From Rhodamnia argentea (taxonomy: Eukaryota > Streptophyta > Magnoliopsida > Myrtales > Myrtaceae), in the NCBI RefSeq assembly GCF_020921035.1, contig NC_063160.1, forward strand, positions 14,411,095 to 14,475,094: a DNA stretch of 64,000 nucleotides, given 5' to 3'. The position numbers and the translations under genes are program-made. Shown piece after piece: positions 4,709 to 64,000 of this stretch. How positions within the stretch are numbered: position 1 is the first letter of the stretch; every line of letters starts with the position of its first letter. The notes under the pieces are model-generated. The model made no database searches. It was not told where the DNA came from and worked only from the letters and a program-made list of their open reading frames with translations.

Positions 4709-5395
4709 TTATAAAGATGACTAATGTAAGTTATACAATCACGAGCAGATATATTTATACAGTCTTGGGGATATTGGATGTATATTTGCGTTTGCGCGTA
4801 TGATCGACATATGCTCTCTCAATTTCTTTTGTCATTTATGTTTGATGCGATAGTCTGCTCATATGTTTAATTTAATTATTTGTTAATCAAGACATTGCAT
4901 TGTACTATGAGCCCTTCAGCAGTCGGGGACTTAGATGGAAATTAAGTTGAGATAATTCTGATTAATGTATCATATTTTCTTTTTCAATCCATGCGTGGTT
5001 TTGGTTACAATTGACTAACGAGAAATAATATTTACTTAAGTTGACCATTGGTTAGTCCATCTATGTGCTTCACTTGCTTCCCCTCCTAACAACGTAGGAC
5101 TCGCACAAACTCTTGGAGGTTTCTCATTGTCGCTTTCATGGGAATCGGCGAGATTAGCCGCTAAAAATTATCGAGAAAATCAACATTGAAGAGGGAAAGC
5201 AAATTTATTTGTCAATCCACAAGAACAAAGCTTTTGCAATCGCAGCCTCCACAGCTCAACCGATCCCGGGACTCAGCAAGGTTCGTTCCGAGAAATGGGC
5301 TGAATTATTATTGGCAGCCGAAATAACAATCTGCCGAAAACGTCAAATGTCTTGGAAGGAAGAGAGAAAAGCTGGGAGAATTGCATATGTCAGCC

Positions 5396-7430
5396 TCACG
5401 CACTGGCCCCAGCCAACCGGGTGAAGTTCATCGGCGCAACGAACTTCAGATCCCCGGTGAACAGAGTGATGGCGGCTTTCTCGGCCACGAACTGGGTCGG
5501 GTGGAACCAGTCCCAGAACAAGTATGCATCGCGGTTCGGGCACAGGTTGGGGTTTTGCGTGATGTTGCACGGGTTCTCGGCATTCAGTGTCCCACTTCCG
5601 CAGCATGCTGCTTCTATGTTCTCGATTCCTAATTGCGCGTACGATTAAGGACCAGATCGGAGGAAATTGGTGAATCAAAGATAAAGAAAGAGAGAGAAAG
5701 AACAAGAGGAATTGGTAAAAAAATGAAGAGTCATTGGATGCTCACCAACGACACCAGGATCGTCCATAAGGATAGAGATCATGGTATATGCATCTCCAAG
5801 CGAGTATGTCATGCCTTGGAACTGGGCGGTCAGATTTTGTAATAAATCCGAGACCATCGAGTGGAAGGCCTGAGCATTATCGTTCAGCTCCGTCAAGCAG
5901 CCTGACGAGTTATGGAGCCGTGCGTACGGGCAGCACCCGATTGGAGGGACACTCACGATCCCGAATTTCCGAGCTCCCAAGTTGTACAAAGCCTGGCGTT
6001 CCCATTCATGTCAATATGCAACGTTAACAAATGCAGTTGAACCAGATTGAACGAATAGCTATTGCTTAATAACTCACTAATTTATTCTCAACATTCGTTT
6101 GCCAGGCAACTTGGAGTTATGCTTTATGCGAATGTTCCCAAAATTTTTAAGTTTCAAGATTTGCTGGAGGTCGGTCTAGTGTTTTCTCAAACAAGGAGAG
6201 ACATTGTCCCCCAACAGTTGCAATATCGAGTTGGTATCTACCGTCAGTTGGGCTGTGTAGTTAGACCGAAGCACGGCCATCAGATCTGGCTCAGGCACGA
6301 TGGTCTCGTTGTCAAGGATGGGATCGAAGAAGTCGTTGCTTCCGATGCTGATGACGAAGAGCGAGCCGGCAAAGAACTCGGCACTTTTGTTTTGACCCAG
6401 TATCCCTGTGATATTGCCCTGAACCGTCGCAAATTGCTGCACTTGTTGCGCCAACGATATCACGTCACCCTGCACATTAGCAAGATCCAGAGTTTAATTC
6501 TCTAAACACTTTGAAATATAATTTATCTGAGTATGTGGTGGCGATAACTAAAGGTCCCTGTCCATGCTTGACTCGGGCTTCGCTCGCCAAGAGCTCCAGC
6601 AGCAACCCGAGCCCGACTTTAATTGACCGAAGCTAATATTTTGAATAGTGTAGCACACGATACCAGCAGTTTCGAGTTCGCAGACCGCTTTATTTAGTCA
6701 AGCTTCAGCTACAAAACGTTAAGTTTGATCAGAGTTTTTATGGGGAACTTATTCAGACAAGTCGAGCTCTCCGGTAGTGAACTATGTGACTTAACTCGGC
6801 TTGATTATGTTCCTTACCCTGGGGAAGAAATTAAGAGGGCATGGAAGAGCTCAAAAAATGGTGTTACAGAATTTAACGTGACTTCACATAGGTTTGAAAG
6901 CGCACCCATGTTTGATTTCCAGTTGCATCAAGAATTCCAGCGCCGCCTGAGGCAAAGTTAACACCTTGAAGTACATTGCTTTGGAAGGTTGAATTGTCTT
7001 GGAGAAGAGCCAGAAAAGGTGGTGGACTTTGCTTGTAACCCAACTGCTTCACTAGCAACATGAATTTCACAGGGTTAAATTCAAATGAAAACGATTTCTA
7101 GTTTACTTATTGGAATGACCAGATGAAACTAATTAAGACGGGATTAAGAAGACATAATTTACCTATTAAGTCGGCACTGTTGTATCCGTTACTGAATCTT
7201 CCCGTCGGCTGGGCATGAGAGAAGTCGATCCCGTTATAGTAGAAGTTGGCTTTTGCCCTGGTAGGTAAGTAATTGTTAGTCCCCACGTCAACCGTCGAGT
7301 CCCCAAATATGAAGACGACGGGGGGCCCACCATCCGCCAGGGCCGAGACGAGGATCGTGCCAATAGCGCAAAGAAGAAGCAAGTTACTATTTTTGCGAGA
7401 AGACAGCAATGGGGAAGACGCTCCAGCCAT
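5396..7430 (-). CDS. GDSL esterase/lipase, left tandem copy (5 exons)
   Basis: A predicted secreted GDSL-type serine esterase/lipase (SGNH hydrolase) acting on lipid or cutin-like esters outside the cell; the substrate is unknown. Exons by eye: 7430-7163, 7051-6906, 6469-6242, 5992-5746 and 5628-5396, all GT-AG, together 373 aa, the usual family length. A hydrophobic signal peptide spans residues 1-32. Block I reads FGDSTVD with catalytic Ser45; the glycine block is GVNFASGGAGI; block III reads SIGSND; the terminal Asp336-His339 pair lies in FWDWFHPT. The ATG at 7430 lies about 70 nt below a TATA box. It is a tandem duplicate of the gene at 8940-10857 on the same strand. All exons stay in frame, so this copy looks functional. 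Family membership is certain; the exact subfamily is not. Confidence 0.9.
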
Positions 7431-53144: not shown

Positions 53145-53818
53145 TTGTGACATGACGTTCAAAAGAGAGGCCATGGTTCTAATCAAGCACCTGCACAATC
53201 CCTCTAGGGCATCCTCAATCCTTCCAATCGCAATCTCCAAATCCTCCAATTTTCTTTGGGTGACTTGCAACTTCTCCCCATCAACCCCTTCCCTTGAAAT
53301 GTGCTTCCACATTGTGGTGAGTGCACAATCCACACACATTCTAACTCATTCACATCCTCTTGCTTATCTTCTTGATCACATGATATTGCTCCCTTTGGAT
53401 TCAACAATTTCGAGACTACGGACCACCCGCTAATTTTCCTGTTGGACCTTGACATTGGCATTGCCAAGAATGTCAACAGAGATCGGAAAATTGAAGTGCT
53501 TAGCAAATTAGCATCTCTCACCACTCCCATCACTGACGAGAGGTGGTGATCTTCATTCTTCAGTTCACAATCTTCAAATTTGGTTACCATCTTCCTCAAT
53601 GCAGCCATCAATCTTTTGGCATCCTTCATCATTCCCTTCAAGAATTTGGCGTATTCCGCCACACCCGTCTCGATGCCTGGTTCACCCTTTCTCCGCCGGA
53701 GAGCGGATCGCAACACCCATACATTTTCCTTAAGTCGCAACAAGGTTTGCCTAGCGTAGTCACAAAAATCTAGTAGCTGGATGGATCCATCCAATAGCTC
53801 ATCCAATATCTTATTCAA
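53145..53818 (-). pseudogene. DUF241 relic: 5'-truncated, with a 2-nt insertion
   Basis: The conserved DUF241 body is present: LDELLDGSIQLLDFCDYARQ, LRSALRRRKGEPG, then YAKFLKGMMKDAKRLMAAL. The N-terminal block with the SLPSRSHP signature is missing. At about 53335 the sequence GAATGTGTGTGGAT has one extra GT compared with the family pattern E-C-V-D, which shifts the frame. The C-terminal part (CVDCALTTMWKH to RTMASLLNVMSQ) continues in another frame. Otherwise codons are well kept, so decay is fairly recent. The most distant member of the cluster, separated by the hAT and repeats. Confidence 0.8.
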
Positions 53819-54566
53819 GTTAGTGACAACCTAAAACGAAATGAAATTGTAGCTGATGATCCTTTTCTCGCCTAATGACATTCAACGGTCTTATTAAAAG
53901 TTGGCTAGTGGGGCTAAGGTAGGAAGTGACGTGACGGATTACCCAAATAACTTTGAATTTGATCACGAATTAACTTCTCAATTGAAAAGGATGTTGGATT
54001 CCAGTGCAAAGGATAATAGAGATAAGTCGAAACACGAGCTTCTTTCCATTTCTTGAAAAAAAAAACAAGTCTTTAAAGGTGCATGAGTGATTGCACGAGC
54101 GGGCGAAAGAGTTTGGACCTCGTATTCAAATACGAGAAATACCGATGAGCAATACATATTAACATTTATGATTTCATTTTCTTTGTGACATCTCGAGCTT
54201 TATAGTGGTTAAGAGATACCCTTTCGAATAATTCATAAATTAATACTGTTGACACTTAAAATAATCCAAGAGAGACTCGTGACAAGCACGTGAGGAAGCG
54301 ATAATCAGCTACGGGAATGAACACCGAAGCAAGGAACGTTTCAATCGGAAAGGTGCCACGTGTCGGGATAAATTCCGGCGCCACTTCCTTCTAGACCAAG
54401 AAAAGCGCGCGGAGGGAGGCCACGATCGAAGCGGTTGGCGGTAATCCCCACGAGGTAAAAAGAAAAGGCGCGAAGACTAGGAAACCGTCATCCACGTGGC
54501 TTATGGAAAAGAGCAAAGCGTGGGGCCAAAGGAAGAAACCGCTCGGCGGTTACCAAAGAGCTTGCC

Positions 54567-54573
54567 TATAAAT
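54567..54573 (+). promoter_or_regulatory. TATA box of the Tat 5' LTR
   Basis: CTATAAATACC lies in the middle of the LTR, about 630 bp before its 3' end, where LTR promoters normally sit. Confidence 0.7.
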
Positions 54574-54689
54574 ACCTCGCAATAGCAAGACACACACACA
54601 CAACAAATCCAAAATACTTGCATTTTCAAACTAGCTCTTAGCTCTTAACCTTTAGCCCTTAGCCTAGCCTAGCTGTAGTTTTCGGATCC

Positions 54690-54940
54690 CCGTCGTCGAT
54701 TCAATTCCGGCGAGTATCATATCCAGAGTTAGGTGTCGTCGATTAGATTCCGGCGTCTACTCATTAGGTTCGATACCGTCGATTAAATTACGGTGTTGCA
54801 CCCTTCACCCATCTTGTCCAAGATCTAGTCGATTCAATTCCGGTATTGTGTCCTATAGTTCCCGTCCGGTCTTTGTCGATTGAATTCCAGCATTGTGTCC
54901 TATATTATCTCCCGATCCTGTCGATTCAATTCCAGGTCAC
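54690..54940 (+). repeat. GTCGATTCAATTCCGG repeat array in the LTR
   Basis: At least six variants of GTCGATT(C/A/G)(A/G)ATTCCGG occur at irregular 20-50-bp spacing downstream of the TATA box, in the R/U5 part of the LTR. The same design, more degenerate, recurs at 50740-51080. Confidence 0.75.
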
Positions 54941-55254
54941 GTCGAAGTCCGTCACATACTGTTACTATTGCACATTGGGCCGTCGAAGTTGTCGAAAGCC
55001 CGTTTGTAACGCGTCCTTTTGTGTAAATCTATTGCATTTGACATTCTCTGTCCAAAATCGACCCAGAACCCCTTTTCGGAAAACGAACGGATTAAGTTCG
55101 ATAAAAGATTCTCGCGTAAGCAACCTTCATTGGGCCATAGTCAATCTGGGCTTAGAACCCATTACCAAGAAAGCCTTGTCGAGGGATTTTAACGCGCAAC
55201 AATCTTTTTTGGCACGCCCGTTGGGACACTCGGTGTCGGTTCGAGAGAAGTGCT

Positions 55255-57240
55255 ATGCCACGCACACGAGGACGTAACAACATAGACGGTGGTGGAGACG
55301 AACCCCGGGAAGAAATACAACGAATGGAGTCATCTACGGCCCATCAAGAGGACGTCGAGGTCTCTCGACGTAACATTGAGGAGCCAAGGAGAAATCCAGA
55401 AATGACGCCTGTCATGCTAACGTCGATAAGGCGGACCATCGAAGAAGTCCAGAACGAGTTTGCTGATCACATGGTCCAGCGGATGACCGAGGTTGTCGTG
55501 CCATTAATCATCAACACGTATCACGAATGTGCTTGCAGACAACATGGGATTACAATTAACCCACCTCATGCTCAAGAAAGGAATGGTTTCGTACCAGCAG
55601 CAAGTGGCGGTTTACCAAGAACAACATTGCCAAATATAGGCCTTGCGAGACGGAATACTCGGCCTTTGGCACCTCCGCGGATTCTGCAACGAGGAGAGGC
55701 GTTACCGGCCAACGAACCTAGACCCCCGGTAAATGCAGACACGGGTATGTTCCCTAGACATCCTATTCGACAAGACGTACCTACGGATACCGTTGTGTTT
55801 CCGGGACACCTTGTTCGACAAGACGAGAATATTGCTCGTCGGGAGGTAGCTGCCCAACATAACCCTGTCCCTATCAATGAACAACCAGCACCCATGATTA
55901 TCGAAAATCAGGGGGCGGTACCCTTTAGGGGGCAATGGCAGGCTAGGGGGCAAGATCAATTACTCCAAGCCGGGGGGCAAGGACAGTATGAACACCGGGC
56001 CATACGACCTGGATATCGCCAGATGAATCAAGCACTAGGTCCCGAGCCAATGTTTCAGCCCGTTGTGCAACCCATATATCATCCACCACAACCTGGATAT
56101 CAAATGCCATATCAACCGCAGTACCATCAGCCGGTGTTCGACCAGGCACCCGTATACATTGACCCGATGGTAGGATACCGGGCTAATGTTTACCGAAAAC
56201 CATACCCGGATTGGATGGATACGATCCCGTATCCAAGAGGGTTTAAAATACCCGAGTTCACACTTTTTCTTGGCGAGGATGATCGACCCACGTATGAACA
56301 TATCAACCGTTTTCTAGCACTATGTGGAGATGCTACACATGCGGATCACTGGAAGTTAAGGCTCTTTCCATTATCCTTGTCGAAAACAGCCTTTACATGG
56401 TATACCGCACTACCACCCAATTCGGTGCCGACATGGGAGCAGATGGAACGTTTGTTTCATGGCCAATTTCAAAGAGCGGTGTCGAACTTGTCAAGAGCGG
56501 ATTTGTCGACAATGAAGCAAATGACAAACAAGACGGTCGACCGGTTTATTGCAAGGTTTAAACGGGCTAGGAACAAATGTTTAGTTCCTTTACTAGAAAA
56601 GACGTTTGCTGAGTTTGCTTTCAACGGATTGAAGTTCGAAATACGAGATAGGATGGTGGGTCATCCATGTGCGGATCTATTTGAACTATCCACGATGGCA
56701 ACAAAGCACGAAAGTCTGCTCAAGGAAAAGGACAAAAGGCATACCCGAAGAGGAGATATAAGCTTCGTCGAGCCACCCGATTTCGACGAAAAGTCAACTG
56801 GGCCTGTCGAAGTAGCCGTCGCCCAATTAACCATCGACAAGCCATACACTTGCCAAGCCTTGAAGCCAGCAAGGATGAAAGAAAAGTCAACTATAATGGC
56901 TAAAGCAAAAGAGGCGGTGTACTATTCATTCGACGCGAATCGGGCAGAGGAAATTTTCGACATACTACTGGCCGACGGACAAATCAAGGCGACTGAAGGG
57001 CGGAAGATACTGTCCAAAGAAGAATTAGCGGGGAAGAAGTACTGCAAATGGCACCACTCATGGAGCCATAACACATCGGATTGTTTAGTCCTCAAAAAGA
57101 ACATTCAAGAAGCAATTCGACAAGGAAAGATCAAATTCGCCGAGGACAAAGGGAAACCCCCGATGGATGTGGACACTGATCCTTTTCCAAGAATGACCGG
57201 AGTTCAGAAAGGGAAACCCCCGATCAGCATCGCAAATGTT
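55255..57240 (+). mobile_element. Tat element: gag region
   Basis: A long frame begins MPRTRGRNNIDGGGDEP and carries a Gln/Pro-rich middle. It then holds the retrotransposon gag domain, with WYTALPPNSVPTWEQMERLF followed by F.RARNKCL-type sequence. A C-terminal CKWHHSW...C segment is knuckle-like. The protein would form the particle core. Confidence 0.85.
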
Positions 57241-57299
57241 TAGTTCTTGCATGGTACGAGTTAAATTACCACACGAGTTTCGACTTGAGTCGACCTCAG

Positions 57300-60200
57300 G
57301 TGACGGCGGCGACAAGGAAACGACACAAGAAAAGGAAGGGGCTCGGTTTTGCTTCGGCGATGAAGAAACCATGGAATTCGGAAAACCCATGGAGGATCTC
57401 TCAAATCATTTGAGGTCGCTCAATATAAATGCCAAGATCAACGGGCGGCCGATAATGAAAGTACTGGTGGATGGGGGTTCAACGTTAAATCTCATTCCAT
57501 ACCGTTTCTTCAAGAAAATAGGAAGGAATGATGACGAAATAATCCCATCGAATATACAGTTATCCGATTTCACCGGCAAAATTACTCAAGTAAAGGGAGT
57601 ATATGTCGCCGACCCGACCGTCGGATCTAAAACATCGAGGACGTCCTTCTGCGTTGTCGACGCCGACGGATCTTATAACTTGCTGTTGGGACGAGATTGG
57701 ATACATGGAAACCAATGTGTCCCATCGACACTTCACCGGATGCTAGCATTTTGGAATGGGGACAAAGTGGAATATGTAAAAGCAAATCCCCGGACTTGTG
57801 TTACCTGGACCCGTATATCCGGCCGGGACAAAGTGATGCCGGATGATTGCCTTCGCATATCTAAGCCGCCCGAAGTGGACCCAAGAGATATTGCATTCTG
57901 CCGTTTCGACAAAGGGAATACCGAGTGGATCCCAAGAAAGGAACCGGTGGAACTGATCGACCGGTTTCCCGATGGAAAGTCGATCAATTGCGCAAAACCT
58001 CGCCGAGAGGTATGCGGCCTACGAGGCCGAGCAAAGTGACCAAGCCCGACAGCTTGCAGACGGCATTTTAGATTTTGAAGACTCTCCAATTAAGGAGGAC
58101 GACAAGATAATTCAAGCTCAAGACCCATTGGAAGAGGTCAATCTCGGAGATGAGGCCTGTCATCAACCTACTTATGTAAGCCAACTACTCGATCGGAGAT
58201 ACAAGGTTCAAATGGTAAACCTATTGAAAAAATATAAGGATTGCTTTGCCTGGAATTACCATGAGATGCCTGGTCTCTCGAGGAACATAGTTGAGCATCG
58301 ATTACCAATTAAAAGAGGATTTCGACCACACCAACGGGCCGCTAGAAGATTCGCTCCCGAAGTGATCCTTAAAGTTAAGGAGGAAATCGAGCGTCTCCTT
58401 TCAGCCGGATTCATAAGATCAGCAAGGTATGTCGAATGGTTGTCAAATATCGTGCCTGTCAAGAAGAAGAACGGCAAACTACGAGTGTGCGTTGATTTCC
58501 GAGACATTAATGCGGCCACCCCGAAAGACGAGTACCAGATGCCCATCGCCGATATGTTGATCGATTCGGCATCCAATAATGAAATGATGTCCCTCATGGA
58601 CGGGCATTCCGGGTACAATCGGATATTCATAGCGGCGGAGGATGTTCACAAGACAGCATTTAGATGCCCCGGGGCCATTGGTACGTTCGAATGGGTCGTC
58701 ATGCCTTTCGGTTTGAAGAATGCTGGTGCTACGTATCAAAGGGCAATGAATTATATCTTCCACGATATGATTGGGGAGTTTATGGAGGTCTACATCGATG
58801 ACGTCATCGTCAAGACAGACCGGGTAAGTTATCCGGACCACTTAGAGCAAGCTTTTGAGAGAATGCACAAATTTAAGTAAAAGATGAATCCTTTGAAATG
58901 CGCTTTCGGGATAAAAGTTGGCAACTTTCTTGGCTTTTTGGTTCATCAGAGAGGTATAGAAGTAGACATGAACAAAGCTAAGGCTATTTCAGAATTGCCA
59001 TCTCCTGATAATAAAAAACAGCTGCAAATGTTAATCGGGAAATTAAATTTCTTGCGGCGTTTTATAGCTAACCTCTCGGGAAAAATCGAAGTTTTCTCCC
59101 CGTTGCTCAAATTGAAGAATGAGCGAGAGTTTGTGTGGGAAGAGAAACATCAGGTGGCTTTCGACAGGTTAAAAGAGTATCTCATTAAGCCACCAGTGTT
59201 GACGCCACCAAAGGCGGGACGGCCATTGAAGTTGTATTTATCGGCCGCTGATACAACCATCGGGAGTATGCTGGCCCAAGAAAACGACGAAGGGAAAGAG
59301 CAGGCCGTATACTACCTAAGTAGGATGCTCAACGATGCCGAGACGAGATACACGTCCATCGAAAAACTAGGTTTATCATCGTACTACGCCTGTACAAAAT
59401 TACGACATTATATGTTGCCGACTACGGTACATGTAATTTGTAAAAGAGACGTGATTAAGTACATGTTGTCCAGGCCAATCATTAGGGGCCGGATTGCAAA
59501 ATGGGCGTTTACTCTAATAGAAATCGATCCGATTTATGTGCCGCTCAAAGCGGTAAAAGGGCAGGCAATATGCGATTTCATTACTGAATACCCTTCGGGT
59601 TTAAAAGTCAAGGATGATGAAAATTATCTTGGTATTGCGCCTTGGATATTATATTTCGATGGGTCGGTGGCATCCGGTTCAGCGGGCGCAGGAATCATGG
59701 TTATATCACCTTTTCGACAGAAAACAAAACTCATATTCGGGCTTGACTTTGAATGCTCAAACAACCAAGCCGAATATGAAGCCACGATCGTGGGTTTGAA
59801 TGTTTTAATTGACATGGGGATCGGATCAATTAAAGTGAAAGGCGATTCTCAGTTGGTGATCAAATAGCTAAATGGTGAGTATCAATGTTTGAATGAAAAC
59901 ATTATTAGACATCACCACCTGGCAAAAGAATTGTTGTCGAAGTTTGTCAAATACGAGCTAATCCATGTCAAGAGGAGTGAAAATTCGGAAGCTAATGAAT
60001 TGGCTCGGATGGCGTCGGGATATCGTATATCGAAGGAACTAGCGGACCACATCATTACTCAAGTAAGGACCTTACCATCGATAGATGCTCGGGTAATGAT
60101 GATTGAGCAATCTGAAAGCTCGAAAAAAACCAGCAGCCAACAAGATTGGAGAACCCCTTTGGTAAACTACTTGAAGAACCCGGGTTCTGGCGGTAGGGAC

Positions 60201-61420
60201 TTCAAAAGGAAAGCCTTAAAATATTTGTTGATCGACAACGAGTTGTATCGAAAGACAATCGACGGACTGCTTCTCAAATGCTTAGGGCGGGAGGAAGCAA
60301 TGCTAGTCATGACGGAAGTCCATGAAGGGATCTGTGGTGCACATCAGGTTGGATTGAAAACAAAGTGGTTGTTAAGGCGACATGGGTATTTTTGGCCAAC
60401 AATCACCCAAGATCGCATCGATTACGCGAAGGGGTGTCAATCGTGCCAAAGGCATGGACCAATCCAGCAAGTACCTGCCGCACTAATGAACCCAATTATC
60501 AAGCCGTGGCCTTTTCGAGGTTGGGTAATGGACATAATAGGGAAAATTTATCCTCCCTCGTCGAAGAAGCACGGTTTCATTTTAGTAGCCACAGATTACT
60601 TCACAAAATGGGTTGAAGCGGGGTCATATAAAAGCGTGACACAAAAAACGGTTAGGGAGTTCATCGAAGAGCGAATTATTCATCGATTCGGAATTCCAGA
60701 GACTATCACTGCTGACCAAGGGACAGTCTTTACAGGCCAAGAAATACAAAACTTTACTAAGTCGAGGGGTATCAAGATGATTCATTCGACGCCCTATTAC
60801 GCTCAAGCTAATGGACAAGCAGAAGCCTCCAACAAAATAATCATCGGATTGATTAAAAAGCATTTGGAGGACAACCCAAGGGAATGGGACTCATTGTTGT
60901 CGACGGTGTTATGGGCTTATCGAACTTCCAAAAGATCAAGCACTTGAGTCACTCCTTACATGCTAACGTATGGACAAGAGGCCGTGTTACCCCTGGAGAT
61001 TACGGTGCAATCATTAAGAGTAAAACTCCAGGATGGTATGGCTAAAGAGCAAGACGATGAAATGATGTACACCAATATTGATGAATTGGGAGAAAACCGA
61101 GCCACAGCTTTGGAAAAATTGATGGCTCGGAAGCGAATGGTTACCAAGGCTTACAACAAACACGTGAAAGCCAAGCGTTTCGACGTGGGAGACTTGGTAT
61201 GGAAGACTATTTTGCCTATGAACCTCGACAGCGAAAAGTTTGGCAAATGGTCGTCGAAGTGGGAAGGACCATACTTGGTAATAGACACCCTCCCGGGGAA
61301 TGCATATCGAGTAATGGAGATCGATGGAAGAGAACTACAACGTTCGATCAACGGGAAGTATTTGAAAAAATTCTATCCATCGATGTGGGAAATGCAAGGA
61401 GAATTAGAAAGCGAAAAGTA
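57300..61420 (+). mobile_element. Tat element: pol region (PR, RT, RNase H, aRNase H, INT)
   Basis: Domains in order, with rounded positions. Aspartic protease (about 57.4-57.7 kb) has VLVDGGSTLNLIP. Reverse transcriptase (about 58.3-58.9 kb) has RVCVDFRDIN, MPFGLKNAGATYQ and the YIDD catalytic box. RNase H is at about 59.0-59.6 kb. A second, archaeal-type RNase H (about 59.6-60.0 kb) has LYFDGSVASGSAGAG and NNQAEYEA. Integrase (about 60.3-61.0 kb) has an HHCC zinc-binding segment and the D-D-E core (WVMDIIG, TADQGTVF, GQAEAS). The C-terminal part of integrase runs to about 61.4 kb. The region as a whole is broken in a few places. Confidence 0.9.
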
Positions 61421-61551
61421 AGATAGATCAATTCCATTCATTCAGTAAAAACTTTTTACAATCTTCCTCTCTTTCCCTCTCTTTCTTTCTTTCTCTTTCC
61501 TTCTTTCCCTTTCTCTCTCCCTTCCTCTTGCTCGCTCGCCCGAGCAGGCCC

Positions 61552-64000
61552 TTACTGGAAGTGCTCCCCGAAACGAACCACGAAGCCTCGCAGCCGGCAC
61601 TCCAACTTGGCGTTCTCTTCCCGCGCGCGGTGATGAGCTTCAGCCAACTCTTCCAGTGTCGCCTCCAGGCTGTCCTTTTCGCCCTCCAGCCGCTGAAGGT
61701 GCTCTTTCTGACCCTGCAGAAGACCATTGGTAGAGTCCAACATGGCCTTGGGACCCTCCAAAGGGGCCCCAATGGAAGCCAAGGAACGGGTCTCGCAGGC
61801 TTCGGCCAGTTCGTGTTCTCGTTGCTCGGTTTCCTTCAGAGGCCTTCGCAGGTGTCGCTAGCTGGTAGTCGGGCGGTCGAAAACAATGTTCCGAAGTTGA
61901 AGGACGCTAGCATGAGAGGCATGGAGGGCTTCTTGGACGTTGCAGAGTTCCTTGTGCACCACTTCTCCGTTCTCAATCTCTTCGATCTTACACCAAACTT
62001 CATGTTCGGTGAGATCATCTTGAGACATGGTCGCCAGATTCCGGCGAAACTTATCCGGCTCGTAGTCAAAGAGCGTGACAAACTCTTCGTAGTCCGACCG
62101 GAACGGGTGGTCGGAGGGAAGATTTTGAGGCGCAAAACGGTTGAGCAGGTTGTGAAGTTTATCAAGGGCTCGCCGTTTCACCACTAGCATGGTGTAGGTG
62201 TAACTCGGAAGGGAGATAATCTCCCTCCGGATAGCCGAGAACTCACGGCTGAAGTATGTAGGGGGAGACGAAGCCGTAGAAGAAAAAGCACGCTCCATTA
62301 AGGCTGTGAGGAAGTTTTCTCTAAGAATCAAAGGCAGAAAGGTTTGGATGAAGACGCACTCCCGGCAAGTGACCCTATTTATAGATAAAGGCCAAGGAAC
62401 GGTTCGTCCCACGATGCTGAGTATCCGCCCACGACCTTCCGACGATCGAGGCGATAAAGGATAGTGGACGGTTATCGAGGCGAGAAGGTATATCGCGATT
62501 GGTGAAACACATAAGCAACCATAATGGCGTGAGTGGCGGGTTTTCCGCTGGCTATTAACCACGACGAACCGTCATGGCGATTTGAATTCAGAAGAAGAAA
62601 TCGGAAACGACGCCTTTCATTAAATGCCGCATGGAAAAAGGGTGATCCTGGGAAAGATCGCGTCATGATGAACTTTGGAGAATTGACACTAAGACCGCCA
62701 GTTCAATGATAGAATAAGATGATAAGGACGGGTGGCATTAATATGGAACTAGCAACAACGGACTACAATACGTGCTGTTCAAGACTCAAGACGAAACTAT
62801 GAAGTTGCATTTCACCATTGCGGTTGGCGTCAACAATTGCCTCCTTTCGATGGCTGGCTTGCATCATGTTAAGGTGCGTTGATTCGCAAGTTGCCTCTTG
62901 CTGTTTGATTGTCTTCAATTGTGCAGATAGTACTTGCAGGGTGGTACAACCGTCACTTTCCAGGGTATCAAGAATACTACGTCGATAAGCCGGCTCATTG
63001 TCAGCAAGAAGGGAATCTGTTTCCAACTTGTCGATAATCACTAGTTCACGTTGCCTTATCCTGAAGGACCTTAAAGTCGAGCTAAATGTGAGGAAGAGCT
63101 CATTAATGGCAAATCTAAGGGCACGACATTGGATCGGATAGGGCAAATGAGCCGGAAAAGCAAGGAGAGCTTTGATCTCGTCCTCGACGCACGCTTGGTT
63201 ACATATGTAGGCATATCCTCCTCCTAGTAAGTCATGCGGGCGTGACCACTTGCTGCGAAGGTATGAATAGTCGCAGCGGAGAGTATTCGATGGGCCAGCC
63301 GAGGCACTCGCCATGTTCATATGAACAACCCACGATTTGTTGGATAAGTCGTCCGTGCGGCCATCAGAAGCTAGTGAATCATCCGGGAAGAAAGTCGGAT
63401 CAATAATTACATCAAGCAAGAATGCAGGGAAGTACCCACTTTCATTATCAGATTGATTATATCAACAAAGGATTTACCTTCATCGATCGGTTGCTCAAGT
63501 ATAATGCTCGGAAGAACGAAAGAAGCAGGTCTTCTTAAAGGATGCGATAAGCCCAATGAGTGTCGACGGACTTTCGAGAGAACGTCCATTGCACTGGTTG
63601 GGAACAAAGAGGAGCGATAGGAGAGCCACCACTTGTCGAAAAATGAGGTGCTACAAGGATGGTCGGAGAAGCCGACAAATACAAAGCGCCCGAGAACGGC
63701 ATGAACAACTTCGATATGGCCCATCATGTCGGGTACCTCTTTCTTGCGACCAGAGAAATGGAAATTCATGGAATACACCACCGGCATTGGAATCCCCCGA
63801 GTAAGCCCGAATTGGCGAGCACAATAATGAGGATTGTAAATCTCAAATCCTGACAAGAATTTGCCGCCACCGAACAAATTCATGGCTAAGTCAGTTTGGG
63901 CTAACACGCTCATCCAGAAAAGGCGAGAATCGGGATCTGCTTTGGAGGAGCTATAGATGTCATTGTCGATGGGCAGCCTGGAAAAGTCAAAACCGGTGAG
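61552..64000 (-). mobile_element. Tat element: antisense coding region
   Basis: Two stretches code on the strand opposite to pol, between integrase and the unseen 3' LTR. The distal one, from the window edge to about 62763, contains YNPHYCARQFGLTRGIPMP, which resembles the ARQFG block of plant-mobile-domain (PMD) proteins, then a helical part. The proximal one (about 62298 to 61552) begins MERAFSSTASSPPTYFSREF and includes a coiled-coil-like EGEKDSLEATLEELAEAHHR. A TATA box on this strand lies about 80 nt before it. Antisense coding regions are known in some Tat-clade elements; the protein roles are unknown. Confidence 0.65.
62374..62384 (-). promoter_or_regulatory. Antisense TATA box inside the Tat element
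   Basis: The minus strand reads ATCTATAAATAGGG, about 80 nt upstream of the antisense ATG at 62298. The same distance is seen at host gene promoters in this window, so independent antisense transcription is plausible. Confidence 0.55.

Follow-up and report, generated by a model that had tools for sequence, protein, structure and literature searches.

Three genes antisense to gag-pol, two of them carrying a PMD, in a Tat-clade retrotransposon of Rhodamnia argentea

Antisense genes and PMDs in related elements

Antisense ORFs occur in several families according to the accessible text of the review PMC7264820, which describes gene23 of the Grande element of maize and teosinte (Gomez-Orte 2013) as an antisense gene that is transcribed from its own upstream promoter and encodes a nuclear protein. 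The genes presented here resemble gene23 in lying antisense between pol and the 3' LTR of a Tat-group Gypsy element. The upstream promoter of gene23 has its counterpart in a conserved TATA box, a predicted promoter, at two of our genes (B and C). Grande is described there with one such gene, whereas three are found here, two with a PMD and two with a TATA box, and the likeness to gene23 is one of description only.

For the Retand lineage, the accessible part of PMC11963269 reports antisense ORFs in all representative elements, TRP28 (PF04195) in 97% of clusters, Smc-like antisense ORFs, and a region between pol and the 3' LTR of 2,933-6,566 bp. The present element likewise carries antisense ORFs between pol and the 3' LTR, but over 6.87 kb, and genes A and B carry a PMD instead of TRP28. 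No PF04195 match at E<=1 was obtained in the scanned frames of A, B and C or among the families matched by 18 gene C sequences; a genome-wide TRP28 search returned 0 matches, but likewise detected 0 of 14 controls. The words PMD and mobile domain are absent from the main text of PMC11963269 in its accessible form.

PMDs are reported in the extra ORFs of 57% of Ogre elements, compared with TRP28 in 23% of Retand elements (PMC6317226, accessible part), and in extra ORFs of plant Gypsy elements (PMC9289625, accessible part). The former source also gives a spliced region, on average 274 bp, separating the gag-protease and RT ORFs of Ogre, and leaves open the function of extra ORFs in plant LTR retrotransposons. 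Ogre and the present element share PF10536 within a Tat-clade element and the position of the second RNase H, which lies between RNase H and integrase; the available passages of both papers describe the PMD ORFs without orientation, tandem PMD paralogs or a PMD-less third gene. The host proteins MAIN and MAIL1, which act in transcription and transposon silencing (PMC5418596, PMC7156037, as far as accessible), carry a PMD as A and B do. They are host genes of clade PMD-C, however, whereas Gypsy PMDs belong to clades A1 and A2 (PMC5418596, same part), and A and B were assigned by PF10536 only.

Each component is thus known already: antisense genes in this place, PMDs of Gypsy elements, and a promoter belonging to an antisense gene itself. 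For a three-gene set with two gene-specific TATA boxes, no published description was found in a search that left most subscription literature outside its range. The initial annotation had regarded LTR-independent expression of an antisense gene as worth attention; this is less surprising than it suggested, because Grande gene23 had already been described with its own promoter (PMC7264820, accessible text).

The element and its antisense block

The window, that is, the whole stretch of 64,000 nucleotides that was analysed, corresponds to positions 14,411,095-14,475,094 of the forward strand of Rhodamnia argentea NC_063160.1 (C11); the genome searched comprised 346.7 Mb. A full-length LTR retrotransposon of 15.0 kb, belonging to the Tat clade of Ty3/Gypsy, begins in the window, which stops inside it; the rest was read beyond the window end. 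Its features, in window coordinates, are as follows.

54247..55202, plus strand: 5' LTR, starting TGTTGACA... and with a TATAAATA of its own in U3
55257..57243, plus strand: gag (PF03732, E 6.3e-13)
57197..61421, plus strand: protease, RT, RNase H, second RNase H (RVT_3) and integrase, from ORFs and Pfam matches in this order
61421..64000 in the window and on to 68288 outside it, minus strand: antisense block, 6.87 kb from pol to the 3' LTR
61552..62298, minus strand: gene C, from ORFs, relatives, codon-position and dN/dS tests and alignment A1
62374..62384, minus strand: putative TATA box of gene C, CTATAAATAGG
62766..64000 in the window, start at about 65031 outside it, minus strand: gene B (PF10536, E 8.8e-25 for the whole frame)
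65081-65088, outside the window, minus strand: putative TATA box of gene B
65205-66383 (tail) and 66488-68023 (PMD frame), outside the window, minus strand: gene A (PF10536, E 2e-30)
68289-69244, outside the window: 3' LTR, from blastn against the 5' LTR

The two LTRs are 96.8% identical (blastn; 25 mismatches and 4 gaps in 959 columns), and the target site duplication AATAC flanks the element on both sides. At a substitution rate of 1.3e-8 per site and year, the divergence of the LTRs corresponds to an insertion age of about one million years. Among the 41 matches listed in a genome search with the LTR, eleven other LTR pairs, each about 15.7 kb across, were recognized. The window copy is shorter because approximately 0.7 kb present in copies L118 and L119 is missing from it at about 57201-57242, the gag/protease boundary (blastn).

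The pol region of the window copy is split over several frames. Protease and RT frames overlap at 57957-58039 in this copy, which is damaged nearby. The ORF at 58881-59867 matches both RT_RNaseH and RVT_3, and the RVT_3 match extends, below the cut-off, into the ORF at 59868-60947, before the Integrase_H2C2 and rve matches. The location of this additional RNase H, between RNase H and integrase, places the element in the Ogre/Retand part of the Tat clade by the criterion given in the accessible part of PMC6317226, in agreement with the Tat-type element proposed from the window alone.

A BPS1-like gene (PF03087, E 1.3e-39) was noted at 53204-53830, just upstream of the element, and a similar one, recognized by reading alone, about 5 kb past it (L010, approximately 4990-5870). 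With such genes on both sides, the element may have inserted between BPS1-like genes arranged in tandem.

Beyond the end of pol at 61421, the frames with homology or conservation lie on the minus strand, so that the strand flip described downstream of integrase holds. The two minus-strand stretches first reported are indeed conserved and minus-stranded; their number was revised, since the block comprises three genes and continues to 68288. From the 3' LTR inwards their order is A, B, C, and all three are interrupted in the window copy.

Genome searches returned at least 84 matches for A, 79 for B and 151 for C, some of which are pieces. Distances were tabulated for all A and B matches and for the first 121 C matches (E up to 3.7e-35), 30 weaker C matches being excluded. 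As one B match consisted of two pieces, A-B-C sets were counted by distinct copies. At least 54 distinct sets are present in this genome, both gaps being below 2.5 kb in 52 of them. Over the tabulated matches, the median gap was 1493 bases from A to B and 1116 bases from B to C. Gene C lay within 2.5 kb downstream for 71 of the 79 B matches, and B or C lay downstream for 82 of the 84 A matches. Among the 121 C matches, 92 had A or B upstream, and 29 were without a listed A or B there. Order, orientation and spacing of the genes stay the same across copies, and the block of three antisense genes in this Tat-clade element is both real and maintained.

An inverted repeat, GATGTAAATC...GATTTACCTC with flanking TTTTAAAA, adjoins the start of the 3' LTR (positions 8235-8290 of L009, which covers window coordinates 60001-68906). 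Both of its arms match in 19 of 21 copies.

The ARQFG block that had been called PMD-like lies in the minus-strand frame 63407-64000, which within the window matches PF10536 at E 3.1e-4, below the cut-off. Once the frame was followed past the window end, the match rose above the cut-off (E 8.8e-25). Scores were 106.6 bits for gene A and 88.0 bits for gene B, against a curated cut-off of 34.9; the initial annotation had allowed for a lack of PMD similarity, and PF10536 matches were found in both genes. The A and B proteins are 33% identical over 509 alignment columns. The predicted structure of the gene A PMD had a mean pLDDT of 31.5 and gave no usable fold.

The tail of gene A contains an NLS-like stretch of the form KRRK...KKSK and a coiled-coil-like end; a stop at 65904-65906 interrupts it in the window copy, whereas several other copies are open there. 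Gene B consists of a tail frame (62766-63461) and a PMD frame from about 63407-63410 onward. In the window copy a frame change adjoins the start codon of the family. The PMD and tail frames of gene B differ in most copies, with the same frame relation in 21 of 30, and open frames of the tail in relatives are 46-53% identical. A 107-base intron ending in CACTAG, which would fit the phase, was rejected, its AG being present in only 7 of 30 copies, as against a donor GT in 30 of 30. Other conserved AGs also fit the phase, e.g., for candidate introns of 254-260 bases in 29-30 of 30 copies.

Elsewhere in the genome, a cluster of five PMD matches (G000:C2:29032414-29054872) showed the best PMD scores of all, three of the five being without stops. 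These are possibly host PMD genes.

Coding evidence and upstream TATA boxes

Codon-position bias was determined in 30 copies carrying gene B, and changes found in one copy were separated from those shared by at least three copies. Shared changes fell on codon positions 1/2/3 in the proportions 67/54/115 in the PMD part of B (p 2e-6), 7/13/36 in the 5' half of C (p 3.5e-6) and 32/27/57 in the tail of A (p 1.3e-3). Single-copy changes did not depart significantly from an even distribution in these three regions (p 0.12, 0.14 and 0.25, respectively), as expected after insertion. The contrast between shared and single-copy changes gave p 0.013 for the PMD part of B, 0.009 for the 5' half of C and 0.029 for the tail of A; the counts underlying these p-values are not independent, because the copies are related. 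Codon-position bias was absent from the spacers, and third-position bias was not significant for shared changes in the tail of B (20/19/26, p 0.52) or in the middle part of gene A (24/31/40, p 0.13). A single family thereby provides an internal test, in which single-copy changes look neutral and inherited ones are filtered in the frame of the antisense proteins.

For gene C, the median dN/dS inside the close group of 11 copies was 0.27 (55 pairs, with a range of 0.15-0.88). Comparison of this group with two mid copies gave 0.19 (22 pairs), and with eight divergent copies, whose proteins are about 46-59% identical, 0.15 (63 computable pairs out of 88, the others being saturated); the divergent copies compared with one another gave 0.23 (25 of 28 pairs). 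Towards the divergent group dS was saturated, with a median of 2.2. The RT control, based on the elements of 12 of the gene C copies and the window, gave 0.23 for close (10 pairs), 0.12 for mid (10 pairs) and 0.09 for divergent comparisons (25 of 30 pairs). Median dS to the mid group was alike for C (0.66) and RT (0.63), as expected if the two travel together.

The two other minus-strand frames over gene C yielded medians of 0.83-1.44, with 0.86 and 1.44 against the divergent copies. The plus-strand frames gave 0.88, 1.55 and 0.28, the last of which is taken as the mirror of the minus-strand gene C frame; the longest plus-strand ORF over gene C (61408-62187) falls in the frame with 0.88. Comparison among the copies shows that gene C, the A tail and the PMD part of B evolved as protein-coding sequence, as judged from their patterns of substitution. 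Neutral evolution across copies, also allowed for at the outset, is at odds with the shared changes and with the dN/dS of gene C.

The gene C family encodes approximately 248 aa with a coiled-coil-like C-terminal end and no PMD, and the proximal gene was accordingly recognized correctly from the outset as protein-coding with such an end. The window copy is closed by an in-frame stop at 61858-61860. Gene C is open from the ATG to the end of the family in 6 of 21 copies, one of which runs on further, and relatives were detected down to about 46% identity in the genome search. Pfam searches with 18 gene C sequences from 13 copies gave nothing better than E 0.0019 (Cep57_CLD_2); this match and others, including those to Spc7, Peptidase_M44 and Baculo_p24, which were below the cut-off, were taken as coiled-coil or chance. 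The predicted structure was mostly helical (mean pLDDT 57), with only the C-terminal helix 182-247 fairly confident, and provided no fold that could be used, and sequence searches of the PDB gave nothing convincing.

In profile comparison, residues 36-89 of C aligned weakly with the stretch preceding the coiled coil of gene A (E 0.0097, probability 4%), a score reached neither by any of 150 column shuffles nor by the reversed profile. When A was aligned less deeply, this region was found again, but at E 0.47 only. Homology between C and the B tail was unsupported, as 45 of 150 column shuffles reached its score. The tails of B and A matched in another stretch with a score reached by 1 of 150 shuffles, which is suggestive only. 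Among the shallower alignments of the pairs formed by C, the A tail and the B tail, none stood out (E 0.47, 0.091 and 0.067). Gene C may be the tail of a PMD protein without its PMD, which we regard as a lead.

As regards promoter-like motifs, a TATA box about 80 nt upstream of the proximal gene had been reported. In the window copy, TATAAATA begins 85 bases before the ATG of gene C at 62298. Its recurrence exceeds chance: it is present upstream in 27 of 30 copies, and in the 26 of them with both box and ATG legible the distance is 80-86 bases. A second set comprised 21 aligned copies, ten of them divergent or mid; here TATAAATAG scored 0.974 against a mean of 0.766 and ranked first of 292 nine-base windows upstream of C. 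The exact TATAAATA was found in 17 of these 21 copies, and in 7 of 11 when only the window and the ten distant copies were counted. The eight most divergent copies comprised four with the exact box, three in which it read TATAAG or TATAAAC, and one with CGTAAATA. From the exact box to the ATG, the distance was 83-85 in six distant copies and 84-85 in the four divergent ones.

While this box proved conserved, it is not the only one, since gene B possesses a TATA box as well. For gene B, 28 of 30 copies have TATAAATA upstream, 44-58 bases from ATGAGT in 27 of them; at roughly the corresponding alignment position, four distant copies have TATATAA and four nearer ones TATAAA. Genes B and C are thus each shown to have a conserved predicted TATA box at a near-fixed distance from the ATG. 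No conserved TATA box was found upstream of gene A in 21 aligned copies. Just before its ATG, 20 of the 21 carry AACCCTAAA (68024-68080, outside the window), which we take to be telo-box-like.

In copy L048 (oriented positions 1-215), the sequence upstream of gene C is unlike that of the other close copies up to the TATA box, as if this copy had been rearranged exactly there.

Possible expression and function of the block

It appears probable to us that the three are accessory genes read against gag-pol, that B and C are transcribed from their own TATA boxes, and that the PMD proteins act on the host. RNA polymerase II would start at the B and C boxes in the integrated copy, so that both mRNAs would be made independently of the 5' LTR; gene A would be made from a TATA-less promoter adjoining the 3' LTR. 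To judge from their families, the PMD proteins would have a nuclear role, acting on host machinery for silencing or transcription that employs the PMD proteins MAIN and MAIL1, to the benefit of the element, and gene C could serve as their partner or regulator via its coiled coil. Both the step from TATA box to independent expression and that from PMD to counter-silencing are ones that we infer. If the TATA boxes are active, the antisense genes could be expressed while the LTR is silent, as one would expect of a module with a regulatory or counter-silencing role, and the PMD, as a transposon domain, would serve both sides in silencing. A more far-reaching version, in which the block is a self-contained counter-silencing module running on its own promoters while the LTR is shut, the two PMD proteins compete with or redirect MAIN/MAIL1, the tail-derived gene C tunes them, and the C promoter and the LTR share a host factor via AACCGY sites, seems rather unlikely.

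The minus-strand promoters might instead serve to make antisense RNA that pairs with genomic RNA and dampens or times retrotransposition via small RNAs, the proteins being secondary. Gene C and pol stand tail to tail about 130 bases apart, so that a transcript overrunning its end would overlap the other, and a dsRNA role for antisense ORFs has been raised in the accessible text of the review PMC7264820. Since a pure RNA role leaves purifying selection in one frame unexplained, we consider this unlikely. The TATA boxes could also be leftovers of once separate host or transposon genes, with expression now depending entirely on antisense initiation in the 3' LTR. That gene A, the closest to this LTR, is without a conserved TATA box would agree with such an origin, as would the PMD genes elsewhere in the genome, the PMDs of MULE elements (PMC5418596, accessible part) and the alteration of the box in 4 of 8 divergent gene C copies. 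A leftover should, however, decay like neighbouring sequence, whereas the TATA block of C has persisted longer than the sequence around it in copies with proteins only about 46-59% identical, and the four divergent copies with the exact box keep it at 84-85 bases from the ATG; we regard this origin as distinctly unlikely.

Chance open frames in the non-coding 3' sequence of a decaying element might be suspected from the interruption of each gene in the window copy. They do not account for the conserved order, the PMD homology and the frame-specific selection, nor for the ratio of 0.88 in the longest plus-strand frame over C; chance has already been contradicted in the case of gene C, the A tail and the PMD part of B, and as an explanation of the block it is extremely improbable. 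The reading of three accessory genes with promoters of their own at B and C is the one we retain.

A minor observation concerns the motif AACCGT/AACCGC, which was first picked by eye. Counted on either strand, it occurs four times in the U3 of the LTR (54247-54565) and three times upstream of C (62384-62600), i.e., at 12.5 and 13.8 per kb, respectively, compared with 0.6-1.2 per kb in gag-pol, the antisense genes and the host flank, and zero upstream of A and B. Each of 30 copies contained one to three occurrences, and 6 of 20 further copies, mostly divergent, contained none. By 5-mer count, CCACG ranked first and AACCG second of 74 shared words.
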